A stretch of 64,000 nucleotides of DNA from Lachnospiraceae bacterium JLR.KK008 (GTDB lineage Bacteria > Bacillota > Clostridia > Lachnospirales > Lachnospiraceae): contig CP143548.1 in assembly GCA_037015955.1 (NCBI GenBank), positions 551,501 to 615,500 of the forward strand. The letters are read 5' to 3'. Positions 42,341 to 59,739 of the stretch are shown piece after piece. The notes beneath the pieces were generated by a model. It saw only the letters and a program-made list of their open reading frames with translations, was not told where the DNA came from and ran no database searches. A program made the position numbers and the translations under genes. The stretch's first letter is position 1; each line of letters begins with the position of its first letter.

Positions 42341-42347
42341 AGTCTAT

Positions 42348-42953: not shown

Positions 42954-43637
42954 ATGAAGAAAGCGATTTTAGCAACTAAAGTCGGCATGACACAGATCTT
43001 TGATGAAGACGGCACCCTGATTCCGGTAACCGTGCTTCAGGCAGGACCCTGTGTGGTGACACAGATAAAGACGCTGGAAAACGATGGCTACAGCGCAGTA
43101 CAGGTCGGTTTTGTGGATAAGAAAGACAGGATCGTCAACAGAGACAAAGGCGGCAAAAAAGAAGTCATCCACAGACATGGCGTGAACAAAGCGCAGAAGG
43201 GACATTTTGAAAAAGCAGGTGTTTCTTCCAAGAGATATGTGAGAGAGCTGAAGCTGGAGAATGCACAGGATTATGCGCTTGGCAATGAGATCAAGGCAGA
43301 TATTTTCGCAGCAGGCGACAGAGTGGATGCGACGGCTATTTCCAAAGGAAAAGGGTTCCAGGGCGCCATCAAGAGACATGGACAGCACAGAGGGCCTATG
43401 GCTCACGGTTCCAAATTCCATCGTCATCAGGGTTCCAACGGTGCATGTTCTTCTCCGAGCAAAGTATTTAAGGGAAAAGGAATGCCGGGTCATATGGGCT
43501 GTGTGAGAGTCACTGTCCAGAATTTAAGCATCGTGAGAGCAGACGCAGAGAAGAATCTGCTTCTCGTAAAAGGTGCGGTGCCAGGACCGAAAAAAGCTCT
43601 GGTAACAATTAAAGAGACTACGAGAGTAGAAGCTTAA
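42954..43637 (+). CDS. rplC: 50S ribosomal protein L3
   Basis: 227 residues. L3 is an early assembly protein near the peptidyl-transferase centre. It starts [36 protein letters not shown] and has the central loop [55 protein letters not shown] precedes the ATG. Gap to rpsJ is 61 bp. Confidence 0.98.
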
Positions 43638-43663
43638 TTCAGGATGAAAGGAGGACTACACAG

Positions 43664-44284
43664 ATGGCAAACATATCTGTTTATAATATGGAAGGCAAGG
43701 AAGTTGAAACAATGGAATTGAGCGATGCGGTGTTCGGTGTTGCAGTCAACGAGCATCTCGTACACATGGCAGTTGTTCAGCAGCTTGCAAATAAGCGTCA
43801 GGGAACGCAGAAAGCGAAGACGCGTTCTGAGGTTTCCGGCGGCGGAAGAAAACCGTGGAGACAGAAAGGAACCGGTCATGCAAGACAGGGTTCCACAAGA
43901 GCACCGCAGTGGAAAGGCGGCGGCGTTGTATTCGCTCCGGTTCCGAGAGATTATTCCTTTAAGATGAATAAAAAAGAAAAGAGGCTGGCACTCAAGTCGG
44001 CATTGACAAGCAGAGTACAGGAAAACAAACTGATCGTTGTCAACGAGTTGAAGCTGGATGAGATCAAGACAAAGAACTTTAAAAAGGTCATGGACAATCT
44101 GCATGTGACTAAAGGGCTTGTCGTACTTGCGGAGAATGATGAAAACGTGGTTATGTCCGCAAAGAATATTTATGGAATCAACACTACACTTACAAATGCG
44201 ATCAGTGTTTATGACATTCTCAAGGGCGATACCCTTGTATTGACAAAGGATGCCGTAAAGAAAATTGAGGAGGTGTATGCATAA
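43664..44284 (+). CDS. rplD: 50S ribosomal protein L4
   Basis: 206 residues. L4 lines the exit tunnel through its extended loop ([41 protein letters not shown]) and, in many bacteria, represses its own operon. Its stop overlaps the rplW start by one base (TAATG), showing coupled translation. Confidence 0.98.
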
Positions 44285-44583
44285 TGGCAGCATTACAGTA
44301 TTATGATGTGATCCTCAAACCGGTTATCACAGAGAAGAGCATGGCTGGCATGAGTGAGAAGAAATATACGTTCCTTGTTCATACGGAGGCAAACAAGGCT
44401 CAGATCAAAGAAGCCGTGGAAAAAATGTTTGAGGGAACGAAGGTAAAGAGCGTCAATACCATGAATCAGGATGGAAAGAAGAAAAGACGCGGCATGGTAG
44501 TCGGCAGAACGGCAAAGACGAAGAAGGCGATCGTACAGCTCACAGAGGACAGCAAGGAGATCGAAATCTTTACAGGCTTATAA
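44284..44583 (+). CDS. rplW: 50S ribosomal protein L23
   Basis: 99 residues. L23 lies at the tunnel exit and docks trigger factor and SRP. It has [42 protein letters not shown] and ends IEIFTGL. Its stop codon TAA is immediately followed by the first base of a 95-bp repeat array. Confidence 0.98.
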
Positions 44584-44799
44584 GCACTTGACGAGGTATC
44601 TCACGAGTCTAGTGCGGAGCCGTTCCGGGAGCTTGGCGAGGTGCTTTCGAGCTTAGCGAGCGGAACATACCCGAAAGAGCACTTGACGAGGTATCTCACG
44701 AGTCTAGTGCGGAGCCGTTCCGGGAGCTTGGCGAGGTGCTTTCGAGCTTAGCGAGCGGAACATACCCGAAAGAGCACTTGACGAGGTATCTCACGAGTC
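44584..44799 (+). repeat. Tandem 95-bp hairpin repeat array between rplW and rplB
   Basis: Copies start at 44584 and 44679 and are identical over 95 bp; a third begins at 44774 and is broken off after about 26 bp. Each copy holds two hairpin modules: A, GCACT...AGTGC ends around a GACGAGGTA...CGAGTCTAG core, and B, GTTCCG...CGGAAC ends around a GGCGAGGTG...CGAGCTTAG core. The array starts at the base after the rplW stop. The gap rplW-rplB is 276 bp, far longer than most gaps in this operon. Confidence 0.95.
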
Positions 44800-44859
44800 A
44801 AACATCACTAAGCACAGAAAAGTGCGATAATAAATCGAGAATCGAAAGGAGAAACAACA

Positions 44860-45702
44860 ATGGGAATCAAGACATACAACCCATATACACCTTCCAGAAG
44901 AAATATGACCGGTTCTGATTTTGCAGAGATCACAAAGAAGACTCCTGAAAAGAGTCTGGTCGTATCTCTGAAGAAGAACGCAGGTCGTAATAACCAGGGA
45001 AAGATCACAGTAAGGCACCGCGGCGGCGGAAGCAGAAGAAAATACAGACTGATTGATTTTAAGAGAAATAAAGACGGCGTACCGGCAACGGTAATCGGTG
45101 TGGAATATGATCCGAACAGGACGGCAAACATCGCGCTGATCTGCTATGCGGACGGAGAAAAGGCATACATTCTTGCTCCGGAAGGTCTGACAGACGGAAT
45201 GAAAGTAATGAACGGACCGGAAGCTGAAGTAAGAGTCGGCAACTGCCTGCCTTTATCGGAAATTCCGGTAGGTACGCAGCTGCATAACATAGAGCTGTAC
45301 CCGGGAAAAGGCGGCCAGATGGTACGCAGCGCGGGAAACAGTGCACAGTTAATGGCAAAGGAAGGAAAATATGCGACACTCAGACTTCCTTCCGGTGAGA
45401 TGAGAATGGTTCCCATCGTATGCCGCGCTACGGTCGGCGTCGTTGGAAACGGTGATCACAGCCTGATTAATATCGGTAAAGCAGGTCGTAAGCGTCATAT
45501 GGGCATCAGACCTACGGTCCGCGGTTCTGTTATGAACCCCAATGACCATCCGCACGGCGGCGGCGAGGGCAAGACCGGAATCGGACGTCCGGGTCCCTGC
45601 ACACCATGGGGAAAACCGGCACTCGGCCTGAAGACGAGAAAGAAAAAGAAACAGTCTAACAAGCTGATCGTAAGAAGACGTGACGGCAGAGCGATTAAGT
45701 AA
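44860..45702 (+). CDS. rplB: 50S ribosomal protein L2
   Basis: 280 residues. L2 binds 23S rRNA domain IV and is needed for subunit joining and peptidyl transfer. It starts [24 protein letters not shown] and has [26 protein letters not shown] and [36 protein letters not shown] with the conserved His. RBS AAAGGAG. Confidence 0.98.
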
Positions 45703-45727
45703 TCGATATTAATAGGAGGAATCAAAA

Positions 45728-46009
45728 ATGGCTAGATCATTAAAAAAAGGACCATTTGCAGATGAGAGCCTGCTGAAAAAAGTAGATGCTCTGAATGCAT
45801 CAGGACAGAAACAGGTTATTAAGACCTGGTCCCGCCGTTCTACAATCTTCCCATCTTTCGTGGGACACACGATTGCAGTGCATGACGGAAGAAAACATGT
45901 ACCGGTATATGTAACAGAGGATATGGTTGGTCATAAACTCGGTGAGTTCGTTGCGACAAGAACTTACAGAGGACATGGAAAAGACGAAAAGAAATCGAAA
46001 GTAAGATAA
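45728..46009 (+). CDS. rpsS: 30S ribosomal protein S19
   Basis: 93 residues. S19 lies in the 30S head next to S13. It opens [18 protein letters not shown] and has [57 protein letters not shown] precedes the ATG; the gap from rplB is 25 bp. Confidence 0.98.
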
Positions 46010-46031
46010 TTTTGAAAGGAGGTTTCCATTC

Positions 46032-46418
46032 ATGGCAAAAGGACATAGAAGTCAGATTAAGAGAGAAAGAAATGCGAACAAGGATACCAGACCATCAGCA
46101 AAGTTATCTTATGCCAGAGTATCCGTTCAGAAAGCATGTTTTGTTTTAGACGCCATCAGAGGCAAAGACGTACAGACTGCACTTGGTATTTTGGAATACA
46201 ATCCGAGATACGCATCAAGCCTGATCAAGAAGCTGCTGGAATCAGCCATTGCGAATGCTGAGAACAACAATGGCATGAACAGGGACAATCTTTATGTTGC
46301 AGAGTGCTATGCGAACAAAGGACCTACAATGAAAAGGATCAGACCGAGGGCGCAGGGCAGAGCTTACAGGATTGAAAAGAGAATGAGCCACATAACAGTT
46401 GTGCTTGATGAGAGATAG
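46032..46418 (+). CDS. rplV: 50S ribosomal protein L22
   Basis: 128 residues. L22 lines the exit tunnel with a beta hairpin. It has [30 protein letters not shown] and [35 protein letters not shown] precedes it by 8-9 bases. Confidence 0.98.
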
Positions 46419-46429
46419 GAGGAAAAATA

Positions 46430-47089
46430 ATGGGACAGAAAGTTAATCCTCACGGTTTGAGAGTCGGCATTATTAAGGACTGGGATTCCAGATGGTATGC
46501 TTCTGATGCTGAGTTTTCGGATCTTCTGGTGGAAGATTATAATATCAGAAAATATCTGAAGAAGAAATTATACAGTGCAGGTATTTCCAAGATTGAGATA
46601 GAGAGAGCTTCTGACCGCGTGAAGGTGATCATCTACACGGCAAAACCGGGCGTTGTCATCGGTAAGGGCGGTGCAGAGATCGAACTGACAAAGAAGGAAC
46701 TCACAAAACTGACAGATAAAAAAGTTCTGGTTGATATTAAAGAGATCAAGAGACCTGACAAAGACGCACAGCTCGTTGCTGAAAACATCGCGCAGCAGCT
46801 TGAAAACCGTGTGTCCTTCAGACGCGCTATGAAGTCCTGTATGGGCAGAACGATGAAAGCAGGCGCAATGGGTATCAAGACTTCCGTTTCCGGCCGTCTG
46901 GGCGGCGCTGATATGGCTCGTACGGAGTTCTACAGCGACGGTACGATCCCGCTTCAGACGCTTCGTGCAGATATTGAGTATGGATTTGCAGAAGCAGATA
47001 CCACATATGGCAAAGTCGGTGTTAAGGTATGGATTTACAAGGGCGAGGTACTTCCTACCAAGGGAAACAAGGAAGGGAGCGATAAATAA
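46430..47089 (+). CDS. rpsC: 30S ribosomal protein S3
   Basis: 219 residues. S3 helps form the mRNA entry site. It starts [23 protein letters not shown], has the KH-domain loop [20 protein letters not shown], and ends with the second domain [37 protein letters not shown]. Its stop overlaps the rplP start by one base (TAATG). Confidence 0.98.
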
Positions 47090-47529
47090 TGTTAATGCCA
47101 AAAAGAGTAAAACGTCGTAAACAGTTCCGTGGTTCTATGGCAGGCAAGGCTACAAGAGGCAATACGATCACGTATGGTGAGTACGGTATCATTGCCACAG
47201 AGCCATGTTGGATTAAATCAAATCAGATCGAAGCAGCCCGTATCGCGATGACGCGTTATATCAAGCGTGGCGGCCAGGTCTGGATCAAGATCTTTCCGGA
47301 TAAGCCGGTAACTACGAAGCCGGCAGAGACACGTATGGGTTCCGGTAAAGGTACGCTTGAATACTGGGTAGCAGTTGTAAAGCCGGGCCGTGTCATGTTC
47401 GAGATCTCCGGCGTGCCGGAAGAAACCGCAAAAGAAGCGTTACGTCTTGCGACACATAAGCTTCCATGCAAATGTAAAATTGTTTCTAAAGCAGACTTGG
47501 AAGGCGGTGTATCAAATGAAAACGAATAA
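47089..47529 (+). CDS. rplP: 50S ribosomal protein L16
   Basis: 146 residues. L16 stabilises A-site tRNA. It begins [35 protein letters not shown] and has [29 protein letters not shown]. It overlaps rpsC by 1 bp and rpmC by 14 bp. Confidence 0.98.
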
Positions 47530-47725
47530 GTATGTAGAAGATTTAAAGACCAAATCAGCTGCGGAACTGGAGCAGGAATTGGTAGCTGCAAAAAAAGAAC
47601 TTTTCAATTTGAGATTCCAGAATGCGACAAATCAGTTGGATAACACAGCGAGAATCCGTGAAGTAAGAAAAAATATTGCCAGAATTCAGACTGTTATCAC
47701 TGAGAAAAAGAAAGCGCAGGCATAG
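47516..47725 (+). CDS. rpmC: 50S ribosomal protein L29
   Basis: 69 residues, two long helices: [57 protein letters not shown]29 sits by the tunnel exit with L23. ATG 47516 is inside the rplP end, and the full protein fits the family length; longer upstream starts belong to rplP in another frame. Confidence 0.97.
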
Positions 47726-47762
47726 GACTTAATTTATTTTAAGTGCAGAAAGGAGAATCACA

Positions 47763-48017
47763 GTGGAAAGAAATTTGAGGAAAACCCGTACTGGTAAAGT
47801 TACCAGTAATAAAATGGATAAAACGATTGTTGTGGCAGTGGAAGATCATGTAAAACATCCGCTTTACAACAAGATTATCAAGAGAACTTATAAGTTGAAA
47901 GCTCACGACGAGAACAATGAGTGCAATATCGGCGACACCGTAAAGGTCATGGAAACAAGGCCGCTGTCTAAGGACAAACGTTGGAGACTTGTGGAAATCG
48001 TAGAAAAGGTTAAATAG
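47763..48017 (+). CDS. rpsQ: 30S ribosomal protein S17
   Basis: 84 residues. S17 is an early 16S rRNA binder. It starts [34 protein letters not shown] and has the OB fold. The start is GTG at 47763, 6-7 bases after AAAGGAG. Confidence 0.97.
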
Positions 48018-48055
48018 TTTTCAGTTGACAGAGAAGAAGTAAAAGGAGAATTAGC

Positions 48056-48424
48056 ATGATACAACAGGAAAGCAGACTGAAGGTCGCTGATAACACAGGT
48101 GCAAAAGAGCTTTTATGTATCAGGGTTATGGGCGGATCTACAAGAAGATATGCAAACATTGGCGATGTGATTGTTGCTACTGTTAAAGATGCAACACCCG
48201 GCGGTGTTGTTAAAAAGGGCGATGTCGTAAAAGCTGTCGTTGTACGTACTGTAAAAGGCGCCCGCCGTAAAGACGGTTCTTATATCAAATTTGACGAGAA
48301 TGCTGCTGTTATCATCAAAGAAGATAAGACCCCGAGGGGAACTCGTATTTTTGGACCAGTAGCAAGAGAGCTTCGTGAAAAACAGTTTATGAAAATTGTT
48401 TCCCTGGCTCCGGAAGTATTATAA
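48056..48424 (+). CDS. rplN: 50S ribosomal protein L14
   Basis: 122 residues. L14 lies at the subunit interface and binds the silencing factor RsfS in other bacteria. It starts [45 protein letters not shown] and ends in [27 protein letters not shown] precedes it. Confidence 0.98.
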
Positions 48425-48436
48425 GGAGGTGCCGGA

Positions 48437-48748
48437 ATGTCTACAATGAAAATCAAAAAGGGCGACACGGTGAAAGTGATCGCCGGTAAAGATAGCGGAA
48501 AAGAAGGAAAAGTTATATCTGTTGACCCCAAAAAGAACAGAGTGCTTGTAGAAGGCGTAAACATGATCTCGAAACATACAAAACCTTCGGCGGCCAATCA
48601 GAATGGCGGAATCGTTCAGAGAGAAGCAGCGATCGACATTTCCAATGTTATGTATGTTCACAAAGGAAAGGCAACGAGAGTTGGCTTTAAAGTTGAGAAC
48701 GGCAAAAAAGTACGTTTCGCAAAATCTACAGGCGACGTGATCGATTGA
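48437..48748 (+). CDS. rplX: 50S ribosomal protein L24
   Basis: 103 residues. L24 starts 50S assembly. The KOW motif is [43 protein letters not shown] lies before the ATG, and the gap to rplN is 12 bp. Confidence 0.98.
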
Positions 48749-48772
48749 TTCTAAGGAAGGAGGTCTTAACAG

Positions 48773-49312
48773 GTGAGTAGACTGAAAGATATGTATAAAA
48801 ACCAGATCATAGACGCTATGGTCAAAAAGTTTGGATATAAAAATATCATGGAAGTGCCGAAGCTCGAGAAAATCGTAGTTAATATGGGCGTTGGCGAGGC
48901 AAAAGAAAACGCAAAAGTCTTAGAGTCTGCAATGGCAGACATGGAAAAGATCACAGGACAGAAGGCGATCGTTACAAAGGCGAAAAATTCGATTGCTAAC
49001 TTTAAGATCAGAGAAGGCATGGCGATCGGCTGTAAGGTAACTCTGCGCGGCGAGAAAATGTATGAGTTTGCAGATCGTCTGATCAATCTTGCATTGCCCC
49101 GTGTGCGTGACTTCAGAGGTGTAAATCCCAATGCGTTTGACGGAAGAGGAAACTATGCGCTGGGCATCAAAGAGCAGCTTATCTTCCCTGAGATCGAGTA
49201 CGATAAAATAGACAAGGTAAGAGGTATGGACGTTGTCTTTGTGACAACAGCCAAAACGGACGAAGAAGCTCGTGAATTGTTGACATTGTTCAATATGCCG
49301 TTTGCAAAATAG
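48773..49312 (+). CDS. rplE: 50S ribosomal protein L5
   Basis: 179 residues. L5 binds 5S rRNA and contacts P-site tRNA. It has [57 protein letters not shown] and ends with [23 protein letters not shown]. The start is GTG 48773 after AAGGAGG. Confidence 0.98.
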
Positions 49313-49326
49313 AAGGAGGGTAATTC

Positions 49327-49512
49327 ATGGCTAAGACAGCAATGAAGATCAAACAGCAGCGCAAACCGAAATTTTCCACAAGACAGTACAGCCGTTGCAA
49401 AATCTGTGGTCGTCCACATGCGTACCTGCGTAAATACGGAATTTGCAGAATTTGCTTCCGTGAATTAGCATATAAAGGCCAGATCCCGGGCGTGAAAAAA
49501 GCAAGCTGGTGA
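49327..49512 (+). CDS. rpsN: 30S ribosomal protein S14, zinc-binding type (S14 type Z)
   Basis: 61 residues. The four zinc cysteines are visible in [25 protein letters not shown], so this is the zinc-dependent C+ form. The gap to rplE is 14 bp with AGGAGGG. After its TGA stop there is a short CAT-TGA and then the second repeat array. Confidence 0.98.
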
Positions 49513-49518
49513 CATTGA

Positions 49519-49868
49519 GCACTTGACGAGGTATTGTCGAGTCTAGTGCGAAAGTCGTTCTCTGAGATAGGCGAGGTACTGCACGAGCCGTAGCGAAGAG
49601 AACATCGACAGCCCGCTTGACGAGGTATTGTCGAGTCTAGTGCGAGGTCGTTCTCTGAGATAGGCGAGGTATTATACGAGCCGTAGCGAAGAGAACATCG
49701 ACAGCCCGCTTGACGAGGTATTGTCGAGTCTAGTGCGAAAGTCGTTCTCTGAGATAGGCGAGGTATTATACGAGCCATAGCGAAGAGAACATCGACAGCC
49801 CGCTTGACGAGGGATGTCGGGTCCGGTGTGAAAGCAGTTCTTTGAGCTTGGCGAAAAGAACTTCCACG
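49519..49868 (+). repeat. Tandem 93-94-bp hairpin repeat array between rpsN and rpsH
   Basis: The CTTGACGAGG core recurs at 49522, 49616, 49709 and 49803, so three near-identical copies and a diverged fourth. Each copy has module A (GCACTTGAC...GTCTAGTGC in the first copy) and module B (GTTCTCT...AGAGAAC ends at about 49557-49603 in the first). Copies differ by a few bases and one length change (GAAAGTCG against GAGGTCG). The gap rpsN-rpsH is 388 bp and holds nothing else apart from the rpsH ribosome site. Confidence 0.95.
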
Positions 49869-49900
49869 ACACAGATATAAATTCAAGGAGGTAAATCGAA

Positions 49901-50302
49901 ATGACAATGAGCGATCCTATTGCAGATATGCTTACGAGAATCCGTAATGCAAATACTGCAAAACATGATACCGTAGATGTTCCTTCTTCTAAAATGAAAC
50001 TTGCGATTGCACAGATTCTTTTGGAGGAGGGTTATATAAAAAAATTCGATGTTGTAGAAGATGGTAATTTCAAGACGATCCGTATCGCATTGAAATATGG
50101 CGCAGATAAAAATGAGAAGATTATCACAGGACTGAAGAGAATCTCCAAACCGGGTCTGCGTGTCTATGCAGGCAAGGATGATATGCCGAAGGTACTGGGC
50201 GGACTTGGTGTGGCAATCGTTTCCACGAACCAGGGCGTAATCACTGATAAGAAAGCAAGAGAACTCCAGGTCGGCGGAGAAGTATTAGCTTTTGTATGGT
50301 AG
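49901..50302 (+). CDS. rpsH: 30S ribosomal protein S8
   Basis: 133 residues. S8 organises the 16S central domain and, in other bacteria, represses the spc operon. It starts [45 protein letters not shown] and has the C-terminal [38 protein letters not shown] precedes it. Confidence 0.98.
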
Positions 50303-50470
50303 GAGCGAAAAATCAAGCATGAGCGAAGCGAGTATTTGATTTTTGCGACCCATACAGCGAAAGAATCGGAAGCGGCGTGAGCCGCGGAAAATGCGCAGCA
50401 TTTTGATTCTTGAGCGGAAGTGGTGGAAGTTTCGCGAGGTGTTTACGAGCTTAGCGAAAGGAACTTCCCT
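50303..50470 (+). repeat. Hairpin element between rpsH and rplF
   Basis: Not a tandem array, but several inverted repeats in a row: AAAAATCAA (50308-50316) with TTGATTTTT (50336-50344); GCGGC/GCCGC and AAAATGC/GCATTTT inside an AGAATC...GATTCT pair; and GGAAGTT (50425-50431) with AACTTCC (50462-50468). The last encloses CGCGAGGTG...CGAGCTTAGCG, the same core as module B in the arrays. It starts directly after the rpsH stop. Confidence 0.85.
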
Positions 50471-50522
50471 GAAAATAACTGATAACAACGTTTCAACATA
50501 GAAATTCACAGGAGGTACGGGC

Positions 50523-51065
50523 ATGTCACGTATAGGAAGAATGCCAATCGCGATTCCTGCAGGCGTTACTGTAGAAGTTGCAGAAAATAATAAAGTGACT
50601 GTAAAAGGTCCTAAAGGGACTCTGGAAAGAGTATTGCCATCCGAGATGGAGATTAAGGCAGAAGGTGCCGAAGTCGTTGTTTCCAGACCGAACGATTTGA
50701 AGAAAATGAAGTCCTTACATGGACTGACAAGAACATTGATCCATAACATGGTTGTGGGTGTAACAGACGGCTTCGAGAAGAAGCTGGAAGTAAACGGAGT
50801 AGGTTACAGAGCAGCGAAATCCGGTAAGAAATTAACCTTATCTTTAGGATATTCCCACCCGGTGGAAATGGAAGATCCGGAGGGCATCGAGACTGTTCTC
50901 GAAGGTCAGAATGTGATCATCGTGAAAGGGATCGATAAAGAAAAAGTTGGCCAGTTCGCAGCGGAAATCAGAGACAAGAGAAGACCGGAACCTTACAAGG
51001 GCAAAGGTATCAAGTATGCTGATGAAGTGATCAGACGCAAAGTAGGTAAGACTGGTAAGAAATAA
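50523..51065 (+). CDS. rplF: 50S ribosomal protein L6
   Basis: 180 residues, two L6 domains. It starts [41 protein letters not shown], with [24 protein letters not shown] and the end motif [30 protein letters not shown]6 sits near the factor-binding site. AGGAGGT precedes it. Confidence 0.98.
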
Positions 51066-51085
51066 AAGATAAGGAGTGTGTGAAA

Positions 51086-51454
51086 ATGGTCAACAAAGAG
51101 TCAAGATCGAAAGTTCGTGTAAAAAAACATAAAAAGATACGTAACCGATTCAGTGGCACGTCGCAGAGACCTCGTCTGTCTGTGTTCAGAAGCAATAATC
51201 ACATGTACGCACAGATTATCGACGATACCGTTGGCAACACTCTGGTATCTGCCTCTACACTTGAAAAAGATGTAAAAGCAGAGCTGGAAAAAACCAACAA
51301 CGTTGATGCAGCGGCATATCTTGGAACAGTGATCGGAAAGAGAGCAGTCGAAAAAGGCATCAAAGAGGTTGTCTTTGACAGAGGCGGCTTTATCTATCAG
51401 GGAAAAATCGCAGCATTAGCTGACGCAGCCAGAGAAGCTGGCCTGGAATTCTAG
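51086..51454 (+). CDS. rplR: 50S ribosomal protein L18
   Basis: 122 residues. L18 carries 5S rRNA into the 50S subunit. It has [48 protein letters not shown] and ends [17 protein letters not shown] 51086 has AAGGAG at 9 bases; the GTG two codons upstream is only 3 bases from it. Confidence 0.96.
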
Positions 51455-51471
51455 GAAAGGAAGAAGGAAGC

Positions 51472-51981
51472 ATGAAGAATACGATCATAGATGTAAGCCA
51501 GTTAGAGTTGAACGACAAGGTTGTTGCCATCAAGCGTGTAACAAAAACCGTAAAGGGTGGACGTAACATGCGGTTTACGGCTCTCGTAGTCGTTGGAGAT
51601 GGTAACGGGCATGTAGGCGCTGGACTTGGCAAGGCTGTAGAAATTCCTGAGGCAATTCGTAAAGGAAAAGAAGATGCGATGAAGCATATCATTACCGTTG
51701 CTCTCGACGAGAACAATTCCATTACTCATGATTTCATCGGCAAATACGGCGCTGCAAGCGTTCTTCTCAAGAGAGCTGCAGCCGGTACCGGTATTATTGC
51801 AGGCGGTCCTGCGCGTAATGTGTGCGAGCTTGCAGGCATTAAAAATATCCGTACGAAATGTCTTGGTTCCAATAACAAGCAGAATGTTGTACTTGCAACG
51901 ATCGAAGGTCTGCGCCAGTTGAAAACTCCTGAAGAGGTAGCAAGGAACCGTGGAAAATCTGTCGAAGAGATTTTAGGCTAA
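51472..51981 (+). CDS. rpsE: 30S ribosomal protein S5
   Basis: 169 residues. S5 guards decoding accuracy. It has [51 protein letters not shown] and [43 protein letters not shown] site precedes it. Confidence 0.98.
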
Positions 51982-51994
51982 GGAGGGAACCGAA

Positions 51995-52177
51995 ATGGCA
52001 AAAACGTTAAAAGTTACTTTGGTAAAATCTCCGATCGGTGCAGTTCCCAAGCATAAGAAAACGGTGATAGCAATGGGACTTCGGAAACTGAACAAGACTG
52101 TAGAGCTTCCGGACAATGATGCAACGAGAGGCATGATTAAACAAGTTGGATATATGGTTAAAGTTGAAGAAGCATAA
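51995..52177 (+). CDS. rpmD: 50S ribosomal protein L30
   Basis: 60 residues. Short L30 form: [64 protein letters not shown] precedes it; gap from rpsE is 13 bp. Confidence 0.98.
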
Positions 52178-52199
52178 ATAAGTATAAGGAGGTGTCAGC

Positions 52200-52640
52200 A
52201 TGGATTTATCTAATTTAAAGCCGGCGGAAGGTTCAAAACACAGCGACAGTTTCAGACGCGGCCGTGGCCACGGTTCAGGAAACGGAAAGACTGCCGGAAA
52301 AGGACACAAAGGTCAGAAGGCCCGTTCCGGAGCGACAAGACCGGGATTTGAAGGCGGTCAGATGCCGTTATACAGACGAATTCCCAAGAGAGGTTTTACA
52401 AACAGGAACACGAAGGAGATCGTTGGCATCAATTTAACAGTGTTAGAGAGATTTGATGATGGTGCAACCGTTGACGTAGAGGCATTAATTGCAGCAGGCA
52501 TTGTAAAAAATCCAAGAGATGGAGTGAAGATTCTCGGGAATGGAGAATTTACCAAGAAGCTCAATGTGAAGGCAAATGCGTTCAGCGCATCTGCCAAAGA
52601 AAAGATTGAGGCGCTTGGTGGAACAGCAGAGGTGATTTAA
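52200..52640 (+). CDS. rplO: 50S ribosomal protein L15
   Basis: 146 residues. L15 is a late-assembly protein. It starts [65 protein letters not shown]. The stop TAA overlaps the secY start by one base. Confidence 0.98.
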
Positions 52641-53959
52641 TGCTTAAAACACTGAAAAATGCGTTTAAAGTCAAAGAGATCAGGAACAAGGTCTTGTATA
52701 CACTGGTAATGTTAGTTGTGATCCGTCTGGGATCACAGCTTCCCATACCGGGGGTAAACAGACATTATTTCCGTGATTGGTTTGCAATGCAGACCGGGGA
52801 CAGTTTTAATTTCTTTGATGCTTTTACAGGTGGTTCTTTTTTAAACATGTCAGTGTTTGCACTGAATATTACACCGTATATCACATCTTCCATTATTATC
52901 CAGCTTTTGACGATTGCAATTCCGAAGCTGGAGGAGATGCAGAAGGACGGTGAAGACGGCAGAAAGAAACTGGCGTCTATTACTCGTTATGTAACGATAG
53001 CCCTGGCATTGATCGAGTCTGTTGCGATGGCAGTGGGATTTGGCAGATCAGGGCTGCTTGAGGAGTTCAATGCACTGAATATTATTTCTGTTGTCTGTGC
53101 TCTTGTAGCAGGCAGTGCTTTACTCATGTGGATCGGAGAGAGAATCACGGAAAATGGCATTGGAAACGGCATTTCCATTGTGCTCGTAATCAATATTATT
53201 TCCAGACTTCCTCAGGATTTCACAGGCTTGTATCAGCAGTTTATCAAAAATAAACCAATCGCGATCGGCGTCGTCTCTGCAGTCGTTATTCTGGCGATTG
53301 TAGTCGGCATGGTAGTCCTTGTTATCTTATTGAATGACGGTACCCGGAAAATACCGGTGCAGTATTCCAAGAAGATTCAGGGCCGGAAAGCGACCGGCGG
53401 ACAGTCCGGTAATATTCCGTTGAAGATCAATACGGCAGGCGTGATTCCGATCATCTTTGCCTCTTCTCTGATGCAGTTTCCGATCATTATCTGTTCCTTT
53501 GCCGGATATAAAGGAGAAGGTTTCTGGGGAGAGATCCTGCGCGGATTGAATTCCGGCAACTGGTGTAATCCCAGTCCCGGTCAGCTTAAATATTCTATCG
53601 GGTTGATCGTGTATGTTGCCTTGGTTATCTTTTTTGCCTACTTCTATACATCGATTACTTTTAATCCGTTGGAAGTCGCCAACAATATGAAAAAAAATGG
53701 CGGGTTTATTCCGGGTATCAGACCGGGCAGACCGACAAGCGATTATTTGACCAAAATTTTGAACTATATTATTTTTATTGGTGCGTGCGGACTGACGATC
53801 GTTGCCGTGATTCCATTTTTCTTTAATGGGGTATTTCACGCGAGCGTTTCTTTTGGAGGGACAAGTCTGATTATTATCGTCAGTGTTGTTCTGGAGACGA
53901 TCAAGCAGATAGAGTCACAGATGCTTGTCCGCAATTATAAAGGTTTTTTGAATGACTGA
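52640..53959 (+). CDS. secY: Preprotein translocase subunit SecY
   Basis: 439 residues, ten membrane helices. SecY forms the export channel with SecE and SecG. It opens LKTLKNAFKVKEIRNKVLYTLVMLVVIRLGSQLPIPGVN, and has FALNITPYITSSIIIQLLTIAIPKLEEM (plug and helix 2), RKIPVQYSKKIQGRKATGGQSGNIPLKINTAGVIPIIFASSLMQFP, and ETIKQIESQMLVRNYKGFL at the end. It overlaps rplO by one base. Confidence 0.97.
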   Translation: MLKTLKNAFKVKEIRNKVLYTLVMLVVIRLGSQLPIPGVNRHYFRDWFAMQTGDSFNFFDAFTGGSFLNMSVFALNITPYITSSIIIQLLTIAIPKLEEMQKDGEDGRKKLASITRYVTIALALIESVAMAVGFGRSGLLEEFNALNIISVVCALVAGSALLMWIGERITENGIGNGISIVLVINIISRLPQDFTGLYQQFIKNKPIAIGVVSAVVILAIVVGMVVLVILLNDGTRKIPVQYSKKIQGRKATGGQSGNIPLKINTAGVIPIIFASSLMQFPIIICSFAGYKGEGFWGEILRGLNSGNWCNPSPGQLKYSIGLIVYVALVIFFAYFYTSITFNPLEVANNMKKNGGFIPGIRPGRPTSDYLTKILNYIIFIGACGLTIVAVIPFFFNGVFHASVSFGGTSLIIIVSVVLETIKQIESQMLVRNYKGFLND

Positions 53960-54034
53960 TCAGAAGGTTTATAAGGTTTTGGGACAGGACGGGAACGCAC
54001 TGTCCCTGAACCTGCCCTATTGGAGGATATGGAT

Positions 54035-54679
54035 ATGAAAGTTGTTATGTTGGGCGCTCCCGGTGCAGGGAAGGGAACACAGGCAGAGATGATTGCCGAT
54101 AAATACAATGTGCCTCATGTGTCTACGGGAGATATTTTCAGAGCTAATATTAAAGAAGGTACGGAGCTTGGGAAAGAAGCACAGGCGTATATGAACAAGG
54201 GTCTTCTTGTACCTGATGAACTGACTGTGAAGATTCTGCTTGACAGAGTGGCGAAAGATGACTGTAAAAACGGATATGTGCTGGATGGATTTCCGCGTAC
54301 GATCGCTCAGGCAGAGACGCTTGACAAGGCGCTGCATGAGCTGGGAGATGCGATCGACTTTGCAATCAATGTGGATGTGCCTGACGAAAATATCGTGAGC
54401 AGAATGTCCGGCAGACGTGCCTGTGTGGACTGCGGCGCAACTTATCATATTGTACATATTCCGCCGAAAGCAGAAGGAATATGCGATAAATGCGGAAAAG
54501 AGCTTATACTTCGGGACGATGACAGACCGGAGACAATAAGCAGGCGTCTTGATGTCTATCATGAGCAGACGCAGCCTTTGATCGAGTTCTATGACCGGAA
54601 AGGTGTTTTGAAGACAATCAACGGAACTGTGGATATGAAAGAGGTATTTGCGGCGATTGTTACTATTTTGGGAGAGTGA
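54035..54679 (+). CDS. adk: Adenylate kinase
   Basis: 214 residues. It converts ATP + AMP to 2 ADP. P-loop GAPGAGKGTQ (about 7-16), ALDGFPRTIAQAETL-like VLDGFPRTIAQAETL, and a LID with four cysteines (CVDCGATYHIVHIPPKAEGICDKCG) for zinc, as in Gram-positive enzymes. ATG 54035 gives the usual MKVVMLGAPG start and lies 8 bases from GGAGG; upstream TTG and ATG are not needed. Confidence 0.97.
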   Translation: MKVVMLGAPGAGKGTQAEMIADKYNVPHVSTGDIFRANIKEGTELGKEAQAYMNKGLLVPDELTVKILLDRVAKDDCKNGYVLDGFPRTIAQAETLDKALHELGDAIDFAINVDVPDENIVSRMSGRRACVDCGATYHIVHIPPKAEGICDKCGKELILRDDDRPETISRRLDVYHEQTQPLIEFYDRKGVLKTINGTVDMKEVFAAIVTILGE

Positions 54680-54681
54680 AG

Positions 54682-55446
54682 ATGGCTGTATCAATTAAGT
54701 CCGCGAGGGAAATAGAACTGATGCGTCAGTCTGCCAGACTGTTGGAGGATGTTTTTTCCAAACTGGAACAGGCTGTCAAACCGGGAATTTCCACAAAGGA
54801 GATCGACAGACTAGGTGAGAAACTGATCAGAGCACACGGATGTGAACCTAATTTTCTGAATTATAACGGGTATCCGGCGTCTGTCTGTGTTTCTGTCAAT
54901 GATGAAGTGGTACATGGCATCCCTCACAGTGCGCATATTCTGCAGGAAGGCGATATTGTCAGTCTGGACGCCGGACTGATCTACAAAGGCTATCATTCTG
55001 ATATGGCAAGAACATTTGGCGTCGGAGAAATATCGGAGGAAGCCAGGAAGCTGATTGCAGTAACCCGGCAGAGCTTTTTTGAGGGTATCCGGATGGCGAA
55101 AGCCGGAAATCACCTGTATGATATTTCTAACGCCATCGATGCCTATGTAACACCGCATGGATATGGCATTGTCAGAGACCTGGTGGGCCACGGGATCGGT
55201 ACGAAACTTCATGAGGACCCTCAGGTTCCCAATTTCGCACAGAGAAAAAAGGGATTATTGTTACAGGCCGGCATGACACTTGCCATTGAACCTATGATCA
55301 ATATGGGACGTGCGGATGTGGAGTGGCTGGATGATGACTGGACAGTCGTGACTGAGGACGGTTCTATCTCGGCACATTATGAGAATACGATATTGATCAC
55401 TGACGGAGAGCCGGAGATTCTGACAATGAGCGGAATATGTGAATAG
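54682..55446 (+). CDS. map: Methionine aminopeptidase, type I
   Basis: 254 residues. It removes the initiator methionine from new proteins. Metal ligands are seen in VSLDAGLIYKGYHSDMARTFGVG (two Asp), LVGHGIGTKLHEDPQVPN (His), MTLAIEPMINMG (Glu) and SAHYENTILIT (Glu). The start is ATG 54682, 2 bases after the adk stop; GTG 54676 in frame overlaps adk. Confidence 0.97.
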   Translation: MAVSIKSAREIELMRQSARLLEDVFSKLEQAVKPGISTKEIDRLGEKLIRAHGCEPNFLNYNGYPASVCVSVNDEVVHGIPHSAHILQEGDIVSLDAGLIYKGYHSDMARTFGVGEISEEARKLIAVTRQSFFEGIRMAKAGNHLYDISNAIDAYVTPHGYGIVRDLVGHGIGTKLHEDPQVPNFAQRKKGLLLQAGMTLAIEPMINMGRADVEWLDDDWTVVTEDGSISAHYENTILITDGEPEILTMSGICE

Positions 55447-55457
55447 GAGTCTGAGAT

Positions 55458-55718
55458 ATGCGGGGAATGTATGCCATATCGAGAGCCGGACATGACAAAG
55501 GGAAATTATATATCATAATCATGGAAGAGGAAGAATATGTATACTTGTCAGACGGTCGGTTAAAACCGGTGGAAGCGCCGAAAAAGAAAAAAAAGAAACA
55601 TATTCAGATCATAAAAAAGACAGAGGAACAGATCTATCTGACGATAGATGAAAATAAGCAGATCAGTAACGAAGAAATAAAGCGTGCCATTAAAGAATAT
55701 ATGCGCAAACTGATTTAG
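55458..55718 (+). CDS. KOW-domain RNA-binding protein (L14e-like)
   Basis: 86 residues. A KOW-type start ([52 protein letters not shown]) resembling the archaeal/eukaryal L14e family, with a Lys-rich stretch after residue 41. The same small gene sits between map and infA in many clostridia, so it is probably a ribosome-associated factor, but its role is not established. Confidence 0.85.
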
Positions 55719-55728
55719 GAGGGAAAAT

Positions 55729-55947
55729 ATGTCGAAAGCCGATGTTATTGAAATCGAAGGTACAGTCGTGGAGAAACTGCCAAATACCATGTTTCAGGTA
55801 GAACTGGAAAACGGGCATAAGGTACTTGCTCATATCAGTGGAAAACTCAGACAGAATTTCATTCGTATCTTGCCGGGTGATAAAGTGACTTTGGAACTGT
55901 CTCCTTACGACCTCACAAAAGGCAGAATCATTTGGAGAGATAAGTGA
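55729..55947 (+). CDS. infA: Translation initiation factor IF-1
   Basis: 72 residues, the usual length. S1-like OB fold: [73 protein letters not shown]-1 blocks the A site during initiation. AGGAGGG precedes the ATG. Its TGA stop is directly followed by a repeat element. Confidence 0.98.
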
Positions 55948-56110
55948 GCACTTAGCGAAAACGAGTGCGTAGCACGAAGTTTGAGCTTAGTGCGAACTTA
56001 GTTCTGCGGAGCTTAGTGATGCTTTGAGCACTTGATGAGGTATTTTCGAATCTAGTGCGAAAGTATGCGAAGCGGTGTTTTCGAACTTAGCGAGCAGAAC
56101 ATCCCGAACC
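55948..56110 (+). repeat. Hairpin element between infA and rpmJ
   Basis: It starts on the base after the infA stop with GCACTTAGCG. It contains GCACTT...AGTGC pairs and a GAGCACTTGATGAGGTATTT...CGAATCTAGTGC copy (about 56028-56060), which is module A, then GTTCTGC and GCAGAAC-like ends (56001-56100). It is more diverged than the other elements. The rest of this 335-bp gap holds the promoter before rpmJ. Confidence 0.85.
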
Positions 56111-56220
56111 ATAGCAAGAAGTGTATAAACTCAGTCTGAACTGTTTAGTACGAACTGGTTCAGCGGGCAGAAAAACCCCGGAAAATCCCCAAAATAAAGT
56201 ATTTTGCAGGCATAACCCAC

Positions 56221-56249
56221 TTGCAAATTGCTATATAGCATGATATAAT
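56221..56249 (+). promoter_or_regulatory. Internal promoter upstream of rpmJ
   Basis: TTGCAA (56221-56226), 17-bp spacer, TATAAT (56244-56249) with TG one base before the -10. It would drive rpmJ to rplQ separately from the S10 promoter and shares its TTGCAA -35. Confidence 0.8.
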
Positions 56250-56282
56250 ACACAATGGTCTTTTTTGAAAGGAGGGTTTTAA

Positions 56283-56396
56283 GTGAAGGTCAGATCATCA
56301 GTAAAGCCTATTTGCGAAAAGTGCAAAGTAATTAAAAGAAAAGGAACGATCAGAATTATCTGTGAAAATCCGAAACACAAACAGAGACAAGGATAA
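56283..56396 (+). CDS. rpmJ: 50S ribosomal protein L36
   Basis: 37 residues, too short for most gene callers. Translation: [20 protein letters not shown] then [16 protein letters not shown]. Zinc ligands are Cys11, Cys14, Cys27 and His32, so this is the zinc-binding C+ form. The start is GTG after AAGGAGGG. The position between infA and rpsM is the standard one. Confidence 0.96.
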
Positions 56397-56729
56397 TATC
56401 AGTTCTTGTCACATTTTTATGTACGGCTACAGGATGCTTTGCAGGTATCCTGATTAAATAATTGAACGTAGATGAGCCTACGGGAGATTACATTTGATAC
56501 TATTTCGCGTCGCTCAATCAGATCAGATGCGCGCTGGTACAGGGGAAAGCTGTGTCAGGGCGGAATTTTGTGGGTGGATTTTTATTTGGTTCACTCAACT
56601 GCATCGGAGCGGTCAGCGTGATAGAGGCCGGACAGAAGTCTGGTGGTGCAGGTTATCTGTGCCCAATCAAACAGTAACTGTAACGTGTCGGCATCGATAC
56701 CGGCATGAAGAAAATGGAGGAAACAAAGA
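56397..56729 (+). promoter_or_regulatory. 333-nt non-coding leader before rpsM (possible S4-type regulator)
   Basis: No gene is supported here. The stretch has hairpins: CAGGAT...ATCCTG (about 56430-56453) and CGTAG...CTACG (about 56467-56481), and ends with the AATGGAGG ribosome site. Unlike the other long gaps it lacks the GAGGTR/CGAG repeat core. In bacteria that keep rpsD in the alpha operon, S4 represses by binding the leader upstream of rpsM; rpsD is in the operon here, so the same role is possible. This is inference. Confidence 0.45.
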
Positions 56730-57098
56730 ATGGCTCGTATCGCAGGTGTTGATTTACCAAGAGACAAACGTGTGGAGATCGGTTTGACTTACATCTACGG
56801 AATTGGCAGAGTAAGCGCAAACAAGATTCTGGCAGAAGCGAAAGTCAATCCTGACACTCGTGTCAGAGAACTGACGGATGATGAAGTAAAGAAATTAAGT
56901 GAGATCATTTCCGAACACTATATCGTGGAAGGTGATCTCAGAAGAGAAGTTGCACTCAACATTAAGAGACTGCAGGAGATTGGATGCTACAGAGGCATTC
57001 GCCACAGGAAAGGACTTCCTGTACGCGGTCAGAATACAAAGACAAATGCAAGAACAAGAAAAGGCCCTAAGAGAACAGTTGCTAATAAGAAAAAGTGA
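56730..57098 (+). CDS. rpsM: 30S ribosomal protein S13
   Basis: 122 residues. S13 bridges the subunits in the 30S head. It starts [47 protein letters not shown] and has [39 protein letters not shown] precedes it. The TGA stop is followed at once by a repeat array. Confidence 0.98.
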
Positions 57099-57451
57099 GC
57101 ACTTAATGAAAACAAGTGCGTAGCACGAAGTTTGAATTTAGTGCGAACTTTGTTCTGCGCTGCTTAGAGAGGTGGTATCGAGCTTAGCAAGCAGAACGAC
57201 CAAAAGGACACTTAATGAAAACAAGTGCGTAGCACGAAGTTTGAATTTAGTGCGAACTTTGTTCTGCGCTGCTTAGAGAGGTGGTATCGAGCTTAGCAAG
57301 CAGAACGACCAAAAGGACACTTAATGAAAACAAGTGCGTAGCACGAAGTTTGAATTTAGTGCGAACTTTGTTCTGCGCTGCTTAGTGAGGTAGTATCGAG
57401 CTTAGCAAGCAGAACGACCAAAGGATACTTAATGAAAGTGAGCGTATAGCG
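57099..57451 (+). repeat. Tandem 109-bp hairpin repeat array between rpsM and rpsK
   Basis: CACTTAATG starts recur at 57100, 57209 and 57318, period 109 bp; a fourth partial copy starts near 57426. Copies one and two are identical, copy three differs at a few bases. Module A has GCACTT...AGTGC ends, module B has GTTCTGC...GCAGAAC ends around AGAGAGGTG...CGAGCTTAGCA. The array begins at the base after the rpsM stop. The gap is 394 bp. Confidence 0.95.
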
Positions 57452-57492
57452 CAAAGGTTGTATGTAGAAAGGTGAAAGTAGGTTAGTTTAAA

Positions 57493-57888
57493 ATGGCTAA
57501 AAAAGTTGCAAAGAAAGTAACAAAAAAGCGTGTAAAGAAAAACGTTGAACGTGGACAGGCACATATTCAGTCTTCCTTTAATAACACAATTGTCACATTG
57601 ACGGATACGGAAGGAAATGCTCTGAGCTGGGCAAGTGCCGGTGGTCTTGGATTTAGAGGTTCAAAGAAATCTACTCCTTATGCTGCACAGATGGCGGCAG
57701 AGACAGCGACAAAAGCTGCTCTTATCCATGGATTAAAGACAGTAGATGTAATGGTGAAAGGTCCCGGTTCCGGACGTGAAGCGGCGATTCGTGCACTGCA
57801 GGCATGTGGTCTGGAAGTGACCAGCATTAAAGACGTGACACCGGTGCCTCACAATGGCTGCCGTCCGCCGAAACGCCGTAGAGTATAG
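57493..57888 (+). CDS. rpsK: 30S ribosomal protein S11
   Basis: 131 residues. S11 lies on the platform near the E site. It has [114 protein letters not shown]. The ribosome site is weak (AGAAAGGTGAAAG). Confidence 0.98.
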
Positions 57889-57950
57889 TAACTATTGACC
57901 GTTGGAAGAAGATACTATCGTATTGTAAACAACATGTGAGGAGGAAACGA

Positions 57951-58115
57951 AAACAAGCGGCTGCGTAGCAGACATTTGTTTTCGTCCGACGAAACAACGA
58001 GAAAATCAGGAGCACGAAGTGCGGGCACTGCGAGCGTCAGCGAAGCAGAGTGATTTTCGAGGTGCTTAAGCAGCATACCGAAGCTGCTTACTTGAGAGGT
58101 GCGCGGCAGAGTGCA
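57951..58115 (+). repeat. Hairpin element between rpsK and rpsD
   Basis: A cluster of inverted repeats: CGAAAACAA (57951-57959) with TTGTTTTCG (about 57975-57983); GAAAATCA with TGATTTTC (about 58001-58058); TAAGCAGC with GCTGCTTA (about 58066-58091). It resembles the rpsH-rplF element in layout. Nothing else is seen in this 263-bp gap apart from the rpsD ribosome site. Confidence 0.8.
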
Positions 58116-58151
58116 GAGATTTTCCAGGTTAGAAAGAGAGGAAACAGAAAA

Positions 58152-58745
58152 ATGGCAGTAAACAGAGTTCCGGTTTTAAAAAGATGCAGAGCGCTTGGAT
58201 TGGAACCGGCATATCTTGGCTATGACAAGAAATCTAACAGAACCAACGCAAGAGCAGGAAAGAAAGTAAGTGAATATGGCCTTCAGCTCAGAGAGAAGCA
58301 GAAAGCAAAATTCATTTATGGTGTGTTGGAAAAACCTTTCCGCAATTATTATAAGAAAGCAGACAGGGCCAAAGGAATGACAGGTGAGAACCTGATGATT
58401 CTTTTGGAGAGAAGACTTGACAATGTAATTTTCAGACTTGGATTTGCAAGAACCCGCAGAGAGGCAAGACAGGTTGTCGGACATAAGCATGTACTTGTAA
58501 ACGGAAAATGTGTAAATATCCCTTCCTATAGTATAAGCGCCGGTGATGTGATCGAAATCAAAGAGAAAGCCAGAAGTATGCAGAGATATAAAGATATTGC
58601 AGAAGTAACGGCAGGCAGACTGGTTCCGGAGTGGCTTGATGCAGATTTAGAAGGATTCAAGGGAACGATAAAGATGCTTCCTACGAGAGAGATCATCGAT
58701 GTTCCTGTAAATGAAATGCTTATCGTCGAGTTGTATTCTAAATAA
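58152..58745 (+). CDS. rpsD: 30S ribosomal protein S4
   Basis: 197 residues. S4 starts 30S assembly and commonly regulates the alpha operon. It starts [45 protein letters not shown] and has the S4 RNA-binding domain (about 88-150: [51 protein letters not shown]). I chose ATG 58152 for the standard MAVNR start. It lies inside the alpha operon, unlike Bacillus. Confidence 0.97.
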
Positions 58746-58779
58746 TAAATGTGTCGGCTTATAGCAAGGAGGGTATTGC

Positions 58780-59739
58780 ATGTTTGATTTTGAAAGACCA
58801 AACATTGAAGTTGCAGAAATTTCAGAAGACAGAAAGTATGGAAAGTTCGTTGTAGAGCCTTTGGAAAGAGGTTATGGCATTACATTAGGAAATTCTCTGA
58901 GAAGAATTATGCTCTCTTCCTTACCAGGTGCAGCGGTAAGCCAGGTAAAAATTGACGGTGTTTTACATGAATTCAGTTCGATTCCGGCAGTAAAGGAAGA
59001 TGTAACTGAGATTATTATGAATATCAAAAGCCTTGCGATCAGAAATGACAGTCTGGGAAACGAACCAAAGACGGCATACATTGAGTTTGAGGGTGAAGGC
59101 GAGGTAAAGGCATCTGATATTCAGGTAGACCAGGACATTGAGATATTGAATCCTGACTTGACAATCGCTACATTGAGCGGCGGCAAAGACAGCAGATTAA
59201 ACATGGAACTTACCATAACAAAAGGCAGAGGCTACGTAAGCGCTGATAAAAACAAAGGCGAGGATCTGCCGATTGGTGTGATTGCGGTTGATTCTATCTA
59301 CACCCCTGTAGAGAGAGTGAATCTTACAGTAGAAAATACCCGTGTTGGACAAATTACAGACTTCGATAAGCTAACATTAGATGTTTATACAAACGGAGCG
59401 CTTGCTCCGGATGAGGCAGTCAGTCTGGCTGCAAAAGTATTGAGCGAGCATTTGAGTCTCTTCATCGATCTGTCCGAAAACGCCAGAAGTGCGGAAGTGA
59501 TGATTGAGAAAGAAGACGACGAGAAAGAAAAGGTGTTGGAGATGAGCATTGATGAGCTGGAGCTGTCGGTGCGTTCTTACAACTGCCTGAAACGTGCAGG
59601 AATCAATACGGTAGAGGAATTGACGAACAAGACTTCTGAGGATATGATGAAGGTCCGCAATCTGGGACGTAAATCTCTGGAGGAAGTGCTTGCAAAGTTA
59701 AAGGAACTTGGATTGCAGTTGAATCCGAGTGACGAATAA
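58780..59739 (+). CDS. rpoA: DNA-directed RNA polymerase subunit alpha
   Basis: 319 residues. The N-terminal dimerisation domain has [61 protein letters not shown]. After an acidic linker, the C-terminal domain that binds UP elements and activators is [62 protein letters not shown] precedes it. Confidence 0.98.

Follow-up and report, generated by a model that had tools for sequence, protein, structure and literature searches.

Stop-codon bases within an intercistronic hairpin family of the ribosomal protein operon in Lachnospiraceae

Why should several gaps of a ribosomal protein operon hold long hairpin elements when most of its junctions are short? The question is raised by a 64,000-nucleotide stretch of Lachnospiraceae bacterium JLR.KK008 (the window: contig CP143548.1, positions 551,501 to 615,500 of the forward strand, in a genome of 3,188,748 bp on one contig). 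Six spacers of its ribosomal protein operon are concerned: rplW-rplB (276 bp), rpsN-rpsH (388 bp), rpsH-rplF (220 bp), infA-rpmJ (335 bp), rpsM-rpsK (394 bp) and rpsK-rpsD (263 bp). The rpmJ-rpsM spacer is also long (333 bp), as it is in relatives (median 275 bp, n = 63), the rpoA-rplQ spacer has 132 bp, and all other remaining junctions have 75 bp or less. An initial annotation of the window had reported hairpin elements in all six gaps, and the spacers and their sequences bear this out, but only four gaps (rplW-rplB, rpsN-rpsH, infA-rpmJ and rpsM-rpsK) share one hairpin family, those of rpsH-rplF and rpsK-rpsD being different. Comparison among relatives supports well both this family with its structure and the conclusion that the stop codon of the upstream gene belongs to the structure, its bases covarying with the far side of the hairpin.

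The stop codon and the structure of the hairpins

The core of the element, CACUU-RRY-GA...GA-RYY-UAGUG, combines an invariant U.U mismatch with tandem GA/GA and with stems that covary; its inner three pairs vary jointly (GAC/GTC, AGC/GCT, AAT/ATT, GAT/ATC). In 37 of 38 copies, against 12.4 expected from shuffles, the five bases that directly follow the closing helix have a second pairing partner downstream, so that this hairpin (hairpin A) and a second one (hairpin B) abut; the arms of the latter vary in sequence (GUUC/GAAC, CAUCC/GGAUG, GCUCC/GGAGC). A structural scan (4 bp, T.T mismatch, 3 bp, GA...GA, 3 bp, 4 bp) of the operon loci of 80 relatives and the window returned 43 matches: 36 intergenic (30 on the operon strand and 6 on the opposite strand), 4 coding and 3 outside the mapped genes. 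The window accounts for 11 of the 43, and at least one intergenic match (L026) looks like chance. Four control scans with an altered mismatch base or dinucleotide gave at most one intergenic match on the operon strand and three on the other; a fifth variant equals the motif's reverse complement, and its score reflects this. When the GA requirement was dropped, the mismatch scan gave mostly chance matches in the window (67 and 52 per strand); with GA it was clean.

The place of the stop codon emerges from the signature TRRGCAYTGARCACTTRRYGA, which specifies the 5' strand only and leaves the partner 3' strand free. Of 397 family genomes, 27 contain it, with 35 matches in all, and the control gave no match. 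Each match begins with TAG (30) or TAA (5), and in each of the 34 copies inspected this triplet terminates a gene in frame: rpsH (13), rpsN (8, with the frame of L214 intact only in part), rpsM (2), ssb (2), gdhA (2), and one each of rpmJ, tuf, gapA, dnaK, pgk, argC and a GGGtGRT-family protein. The 35th copy (G175:C75) was assigned to an rpsH stop by coordinates alone. Three of the 34 copies are without a TAGTG arm (L189, at a contig end; L196; L205). In the 31 copies with a found arm, the far strand has GCC opposite UAG in 23, GCU opposite UAA in 4 and other triplets in 4, the last comprising L208, where a false arm was taken (the true arm is GCC), and L192, L118 and L119, which look degenerate. 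The next variable pair of the same 31 copies is U-A (19), C-G (7) or other (5), and the pair that follows is G-C (10), A-U (6), A.A (14) or G.A (1).

Different forms of the foot can occur within one genome, as in G026 (L200), with UAG..GCC at rpsN and UAA..GCU at rpsH, and in the genome of L079, with UGA..GUC at rpsH and UAG..GCC at rpsM. The UGA form, UGA-C..GUC, is present at rpsN of the window and in further genomes. Folding of the window's infA and rpsM junctions includes the last sense codon, AAGU before GA lying opposite GA-ACUU. In G397, of the same genus, the element follows infA and rpsN, and its rpsN foot is altered yet, by eye, still pairs (GACC/GGUC). The initial annotation had placed the element directly against the stop at rplW (TAA-GCACTT), infA and rpsM (both TGA-GCACTT) and six bases on at rpsN (TGA-CATTGA-GCACTT), and these contexts are as described; its term "stop-codon-abutting" is too weak, because the stop codon lies within the foot of the hairpin.

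Covariation was evaluated on an alignment of 32 rows, namely 30 of the 38 copies (shorter ones omitted) and two copies from the window. Paired cells amount to 94.4% versus 81.2 when shuffled, both sides change in 13 of 20 pairs, and double-change cells number 98 versus 31.6 shuffled (standard deviation 5.0). The covariation score of 0.404 compares with 0.169 for shuffled and at most 0.088 for slid alignments; further pair types are no more numerous than in the shuffles. RNAalifold recovers the same stems from this alignment, with 18 pairs. Since rows were chosen with the outer arms and their partner given, the real test is that of the inner pairs, which were free in selection and have 12, 21 and 16 double changes; as the rows are related species, the statistics do not represent independent events. 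When 33 signature copies are folded singly, the mean pairing probability of the third stop base is 0.85 and the mean energy -26.5 kcal/mol; the 23 other stops of the window's operon have a mean energy of -14.0 kcal/mol and a mean pairing of 0.33 over the three stop bases. Within the window, pairing is predicted for the third stop base at rplW (0.78) and for the first one at infA (0.99) and at rpsM (0.85).

Stop-codon usage differs along with the element. Of 28 operon genes with the element, 24 have UAG or UGA as their stop, versus 523 of 2025 other genes of the same loci, by a model that includes the stop bases; for the five genes concerned, the count is 23 of 27 with the element versus 48 of 335 without it. 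A scan blind to stops gives 13 of 15, four of its 19 matches (three at rpsD and one at rpsM of L077) having been discarded by eye as chance. Of 38 copies, 33 have a further in-frame stop 1 or 4 codons behind the first; in the other five the extension would be 13-32 codons.

Distribution within the genome and the family

All 7 genomic matches to a 195-bp stretch of the rplW array fall within the ribosomal protein operon, and a search of plasmid records with this array returned no match. The pattern CTTRRYGAGGT..CGARYYTAG has 12 matches on the + strand of the genome (9 in the operon and 3 at about 1,943,545-1,943,701), none on the - strand and none in the reversed control; a covariance model at E≤1 has 10, of which 9 are in the operon (150 of 797 candidates scored). 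The non-operon locus is flanked by a gene with RnfC domains and a gene with an RNase_H_2 domain. The genome's sole copy outside the operon (G000:C1:1943532-1943701, L095) begins about 7 nucleotides past a TATACT box, a position that would put the hairpin at a transcript's 5' end, and this layout recurs in G046 and G099.

The strict core (CACTTRRYGA-N3-33-GARYYTAGTG) is found in 67 of 200 family genomes, from 0 to 101 times per genome, and is absent from the reversed control. In a sample of the class, 3 of the 5 family members carry it and none of the 143 genomes from other families does, with one match in the reversed control; to judge by the names of the relatives, the family is Lachnospiraceae. 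Copies are enriched in an operon zone reaching from 8 kb upstream to 11 kb downstream of rpsH (positions transcribed by hand), which holds 35 of 200 listed copies from 58 genomes (1.18 expected), 22 of them on the operon strand. Because copies cluster, the genome count is the safer figure, and 23 of the 58 genomes have a copy in the zone (1.16 expected). The 58 are those that remain of the 67 after omission of G016 (101 copies), of the window's own genome (9 strict cores, of which 8 are in the operon) and of seven genomes without an rpsH match; G171 is represented by 20 of its 27 matches. All copies are in the operon in 12 of 41 genomes with three copies or fewer. Sixteen genomes chosen for positive-looking operon loci include seven with a single copy, located in the operon, four without the strict core, and one with a reversed-control match.

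Covariance model R1 (E≤0.05) has 52 matches in 18 of the 80 relatives' loci and the window, 49 of them in the sense orientation; 28 of these 49 have a stop codon within 12 nucleotides, and for 22 of the 28 the register is exact or differs by 1 nucleotide. Lacrimispora xylanisolvens and Blautia parvula belong to the named relatives in which the model has matches. Elements have been gained at junctions other than those where the operon's genes overlap or stand close together. In L015-L033, the rpsN-rpsH and rpsH-rplF spacers have another hairpin class (TTCTAAGGCGTC..GACGCCGCCTAAGAA, with an A.A mismatch) right behind the stop.

Eighty further places were selected for spread, not at random (one, L165, lies in the operon), and at 17 of them the hairpin lies within 15 nucleotides after a same-strand stop. 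The hosts are pgk in six genomes, one each of dnaK, rplK, rpsM (in the operon), ssb, argC, argJ, gdhA, rnfB, grdB and oadB, and a recD2-type helicase gene whose assignment is doubtful owing to a TATAAT box; pgk of L168 and ssb of L177 were identified by their C-termini alone. The remaining places are directly behind TATAAT/TATACT boxes (G046, G099), in one arm of a large palindrome, or within mixed gaps. At L112, L113, L123, L146, L140 and L142, the T.T/GA hairpin caps one arm of such a palindrome, the outer arms of which match themselves and differ from copy to copy. Without its stop, the signature has 84 matches in 28 of 200 genomes, 29 of them in G171, where none of nine inspected loci is at a stop; among the other 55, a stop is within 2 nucleotides of the start in 27, within 8 in 3 more, and missing in 25. 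Several off-stop copies retain the closing helix in other letters. Judged from these sequences, the family is wider than its stop-codon form.

Hairpins and neighboring features of the window

The elements of the six gaps are as follows, all on the + strand.

44573..44799: rplW-rplB array, 2.3 units of 95 bp (folding), with an R1 match at 44573-44621 (25.8 bits)
44581-44583: rplW stop codon UAA
44584-44615 and 44679-44710: copies of rplW-rplB hairpin A, GCACTT..AGTGC
44622-44666: rplW-rplB hairpin B, GTTCC..GGAAC
49509..49854: rpsN-rpsH array, about 3.6 units of 93 bp, with an R1 match at 49509-49556 (48.3 bits)
49511-49513 with 49554-49556: rpsN closing helix, GAC with GUC, taking the G and A of stop codon UGA (49510-49512)
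49557-49603: rpsN-rpsH hairpin B
50293..50356: rpsH-rplF hairpin of another sequence class, UGUAUGG (last rpsH codons) predicted to pair with CCAUACA
50425..50468: second rpsH-rplF hairpin, GGAAGTT..AACTTCC, its tip GAGGT..CGAGCTTAG as in copies of hairpin B (by sequence)
55941..56105: infA-rpmJ element, with R1 matches at 55941-56000 (55 bits) and 56018-56065 (38.8 bits)
55942-56000: infA-rpmJ hairpin A, last infA codon AAG and the U of UGA paired to ACUU
56028-56058: second, short-loop infA-rpmJ hairpin A, followed by the 3' arm of hairpin B
57089..57437: rpsM-rpsK array, 3.2 units of 109 bp, with R1 matches at 57089-57151, 57201-57260 and 57310-57369; in its first copy the last rpsM codon AAG and the U of UGA are paired with ACUU
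57941..58145: rpsK-rpsD hairpin block of another type, flanked by two copies of GAGGAAAC (57941-57948 and 58138-58145)

Repeat analysis reproduces the three tandem arrays of the initial annotation (44583-44799, period 95; 49522-49854, period 93; 57091-57437, period 109), and the local array expansion proposed there gains support from copies that are near identical inside a gap and different among gaps. Intrinsic terminators, which have a G+C-rich stem with a T run behind it, were rejected as an identity for the hairpins: of 18 terminator-like sites in 42000-60700 (14.8 expected), none is on the + strand in the six gaps, although one on the - strand (57119-57099) overlaps the rpsM array.

The rpsH-rplF hairpin is also predicted to take the G of stop codon UAG into its foot (third stop base paired, probability 0.91 in single-sequence folding). 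A search of eight genomes with its pattern found one match in the window's own genome and one in that of L009, and this single match per genome in two of eight rules out a high-copy repeat. The rpsK-rpsD hairpins, which are away from the stop, look like an insertion separate from the stop-codon family, because the block is situated between two 8-bp direct repeats. It lies between rpsD and a conserved stretch (57896-57940) in which TTGGAAGAAG, a small hairpin and TGTAAACAA succeed one another, and which is also present ahead of rpsD in many of L008-L069; identification of this stretch as an S4 leader was rejected, with no supporting Rfam match. Directly before rpsK, GAAAGTAGGTTAGTTTA (57465-57490) is strikingly conserved, occurring in the rpsM-rpsK spacers of many of L009-L081. 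Downstream of the hairpins of the infA-rpmJ gap, the window has a promoter-like sequence (56221-56249; TTGCAA-17-TATAAT, with TG before the -10 box). A small open reading frame between map and infA (55458-55718), which we take to be L14e/KOW-like, is present in many relatives and has no Pfam match at 1e-5. An S10-Clostridia leader (RF03136) is located at 42357-42438.

Explanations, precedents and meaning

Sequence comparison establishes the structure, the covariation of the stop codon, the sense orientation and the enrichment in the operon. What reads the element is a separate matter, and the explanation to which we give about an even chance is an intercistronic RNA module, specific to the family and gated by the ribosome at termination, that would separate the fates of neighboring cistrons. 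A terminating ribosome covers the stop codon and about 15 following nucleotides, so hairpin A, whose closing pairs draw on the stop codon of the upstream gene and which adjoins hairpin B without a gap, would become foldable only after the ribosome has left; it is this geometry that suggests the gating. The folded block of both hairpins could then halt 3' exonucleases at the stop codon and offer an endonuclease a cutting place, with the upstream cistron gaining a protected 3' end of its own and the downstream cistron a structured 5' end, and neighbors of one operon might thereby be held at unequal levels. In the arrays, gain or loss of tandem units would alter the dose. That RNA decay or processing reads the module is suggested by its sites, by its double-hairpin form, and by the cip-cel operon of Ruminiclostridium cellulolyticum, in which intergenic stem-loops are reported to serve as signals for cleavage, to stabilize both ends and to set stoichiometry (PMC10311766). 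A role in RNA processing or in setting the ratio of neighbors, already entertained in the initial annotation, would fit the sense bias, the intercistronic sites in operons for abundant proteins and the compensatory changes, and the fact that the stop-adjacent hosts are genes for abundant proteins counts in its favor. Possible, though less likely than not, is the broader proposal of a new class of translation-gated RNA elements, in which the open intercistronic RNA would fold once the terminating ribosome departs, so that the load of translation on the upstream gene would decide the fate of its neighbors, mainly in translation-machinery and central-metabolism operons.

A number of observations weigh against a ribosome-gated module. 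The element is not essential, because 62 of 80 relatives' operon loci have no R1 match at E≤0.05, 133 of 200 family genomes have no strict core, and same-genus G080 has no match to the covariance model at E≤1. The initial annotation had taken absence of the hairpins from close relatives, together with misassembly of the arrays, as what would speak against its proposal; G080 is such a relative, but G397 of the same genus contradicts it, and as G397 has the element after both infA and rpsN, assembly artefact is not the explanation at those two junctions. An A.A mismatch takes the place of the R-Y pair in 14 of the 31 signature copies with a found arm. All four UAA/GCU copies sit at rpsH and therefore perhaps represent only one or two events, and the closing helix at rpsN of the window rests on comparison, being absent from the single-sequence fold (stop bases at most 0.02). 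With respect to location, 13 of the 35 operon-zone copies are antisense, three (in G171) lie just beyond the last operon gene, and 63 of the 80 further places are more than 15 nucleotides from a same-strand stop.

The same geometry could serve translation itself, the stop-codon hairpin acting on termination, recycling or re-initiation as an insulator that keeps post-termination ribosomes from the next start or slows release, gives each cistron its own rate, and affects RNA decay only as a side effect. The start of the helix inside the stop codon, the second in-frame stop close behind most copies and the choice of gaps that are neither overlapping nor tight agree with such an insulator, but it would make the abutting second hairpin unnecessary, and the core also occurs at sites without an upstream stop, for example just past TATAAT/TATACT boxes; we consider it a serious though less likely rival. 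Programmed readthrough or recoding at the stop might be thought of because the hairpin begins there and UAG and UGA are favored over UAA, but the preference follows from the pairing, with no need of readthrough, and with the next in-frame stop 1 or 4 codons on in most copies and no conserved extension, this explanation is scarcely credible. A feedback binding site for a ribosomal protein would suit the enrichment in the ribosomal protein operon and the rplK and ssb(-rpsR) hosts, but is highly improbable given that the element is also at pgk, gapA, tuf, gdhA, dnaK, argC and argJ, stands behind genes and not in operon leaders, and matches no ribosomal leader of Rfam.

Another serious though less likely rival is a mobile or selfish hairpin repeat, REP/BIME-like or passively moved, that is tolerated behind the stops of strongly expressed operons and partly domesticated. 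REP/BIME elements are short, modular intergenic hairpin repeats, sometimes arrayed, with fixed stem irregularities, many dispersed palindromic copies per genome and a linked REP-associated (Y1) transposase. The present family resembles them in its short modular intergenic repeats, some arrays and fixed stem irregularities, and mobility is further suggested by copy numbers that range so widely among genomes, near-identical dispersed copies in G101 and G171, use of both strands outside the operon, and the direct repeats flanking the rpsK-rpsD insertion. Unlike REP/BIME, it is enriched in one operon, where the sense strand dominates and the stop codon is in the helix. As to dispersal, the window's genome has 9 of its 10 model matches in that operon, and other genomes have from none to 101 strict cores. 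The operon also holds the sole copy in seven genomes (of a set selected for operon positives), and the same rpsH site is occupied in several genera. The stop-targeted mobile repeat of the initial annotation is consistent with the dispersed off-stop copies of some genomes but fails to predict covariation of the stop bases with the far strand.

Rfam 15 has no family on the hairpins (whole window; 44500-58200 at E≤5; five relatives' loci at gathering thresholds; 15 loci at E≤1). The sole overlaps are microRNA models far below gathering on the L140 and L142 palindromes and, on the rpsK-rpsD block, mir-15, which reaches 18.3 bits against a gathering threshold of 57.3. The S10-Clostridia (RF03136) and S4-Clostridia (RF03140) leaders are likewise conserved RNA in this operon, but they are separate families and the hairpins match neither. 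The cip-cel stem-loops are similar in being hairpins in the gaps of one operon in Clostridia; they differ in that they have been reported for a single operon and not as a sequence family, that processing has been measured for them and is here inferred, and that pairing of the stop codon goes unmentioned in the covered passages of that report (PMC10311766). A catalogue of structured RNA from the human microbiome with 3161 intergenic candidates may include the element without a name; its main text contains none of the terms "stop codon", "Blautia", "lachno" and "rpsH" (PMC8040213). A literature search, with most subscription papers outside its scope, found no description of a stop-codon-covarying element. 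To our knowledge, no bacterial mRNA has been described in which the bases of a stop codon covary with a distant strand.

How bacteria obtain unequal protein output from one operon is an open question. The module stands at defined junctions of the most conserved operon, can be scored from sequence and is present in some genera and absent from others, which amounts to a natural experiment in which RNA ends and protein ratios can be compared at the same junctions with and without it. In the Lachnospiraceae that possess it, the element could set the relative output of neighboring genes for ribosomal and other abundant proteins.

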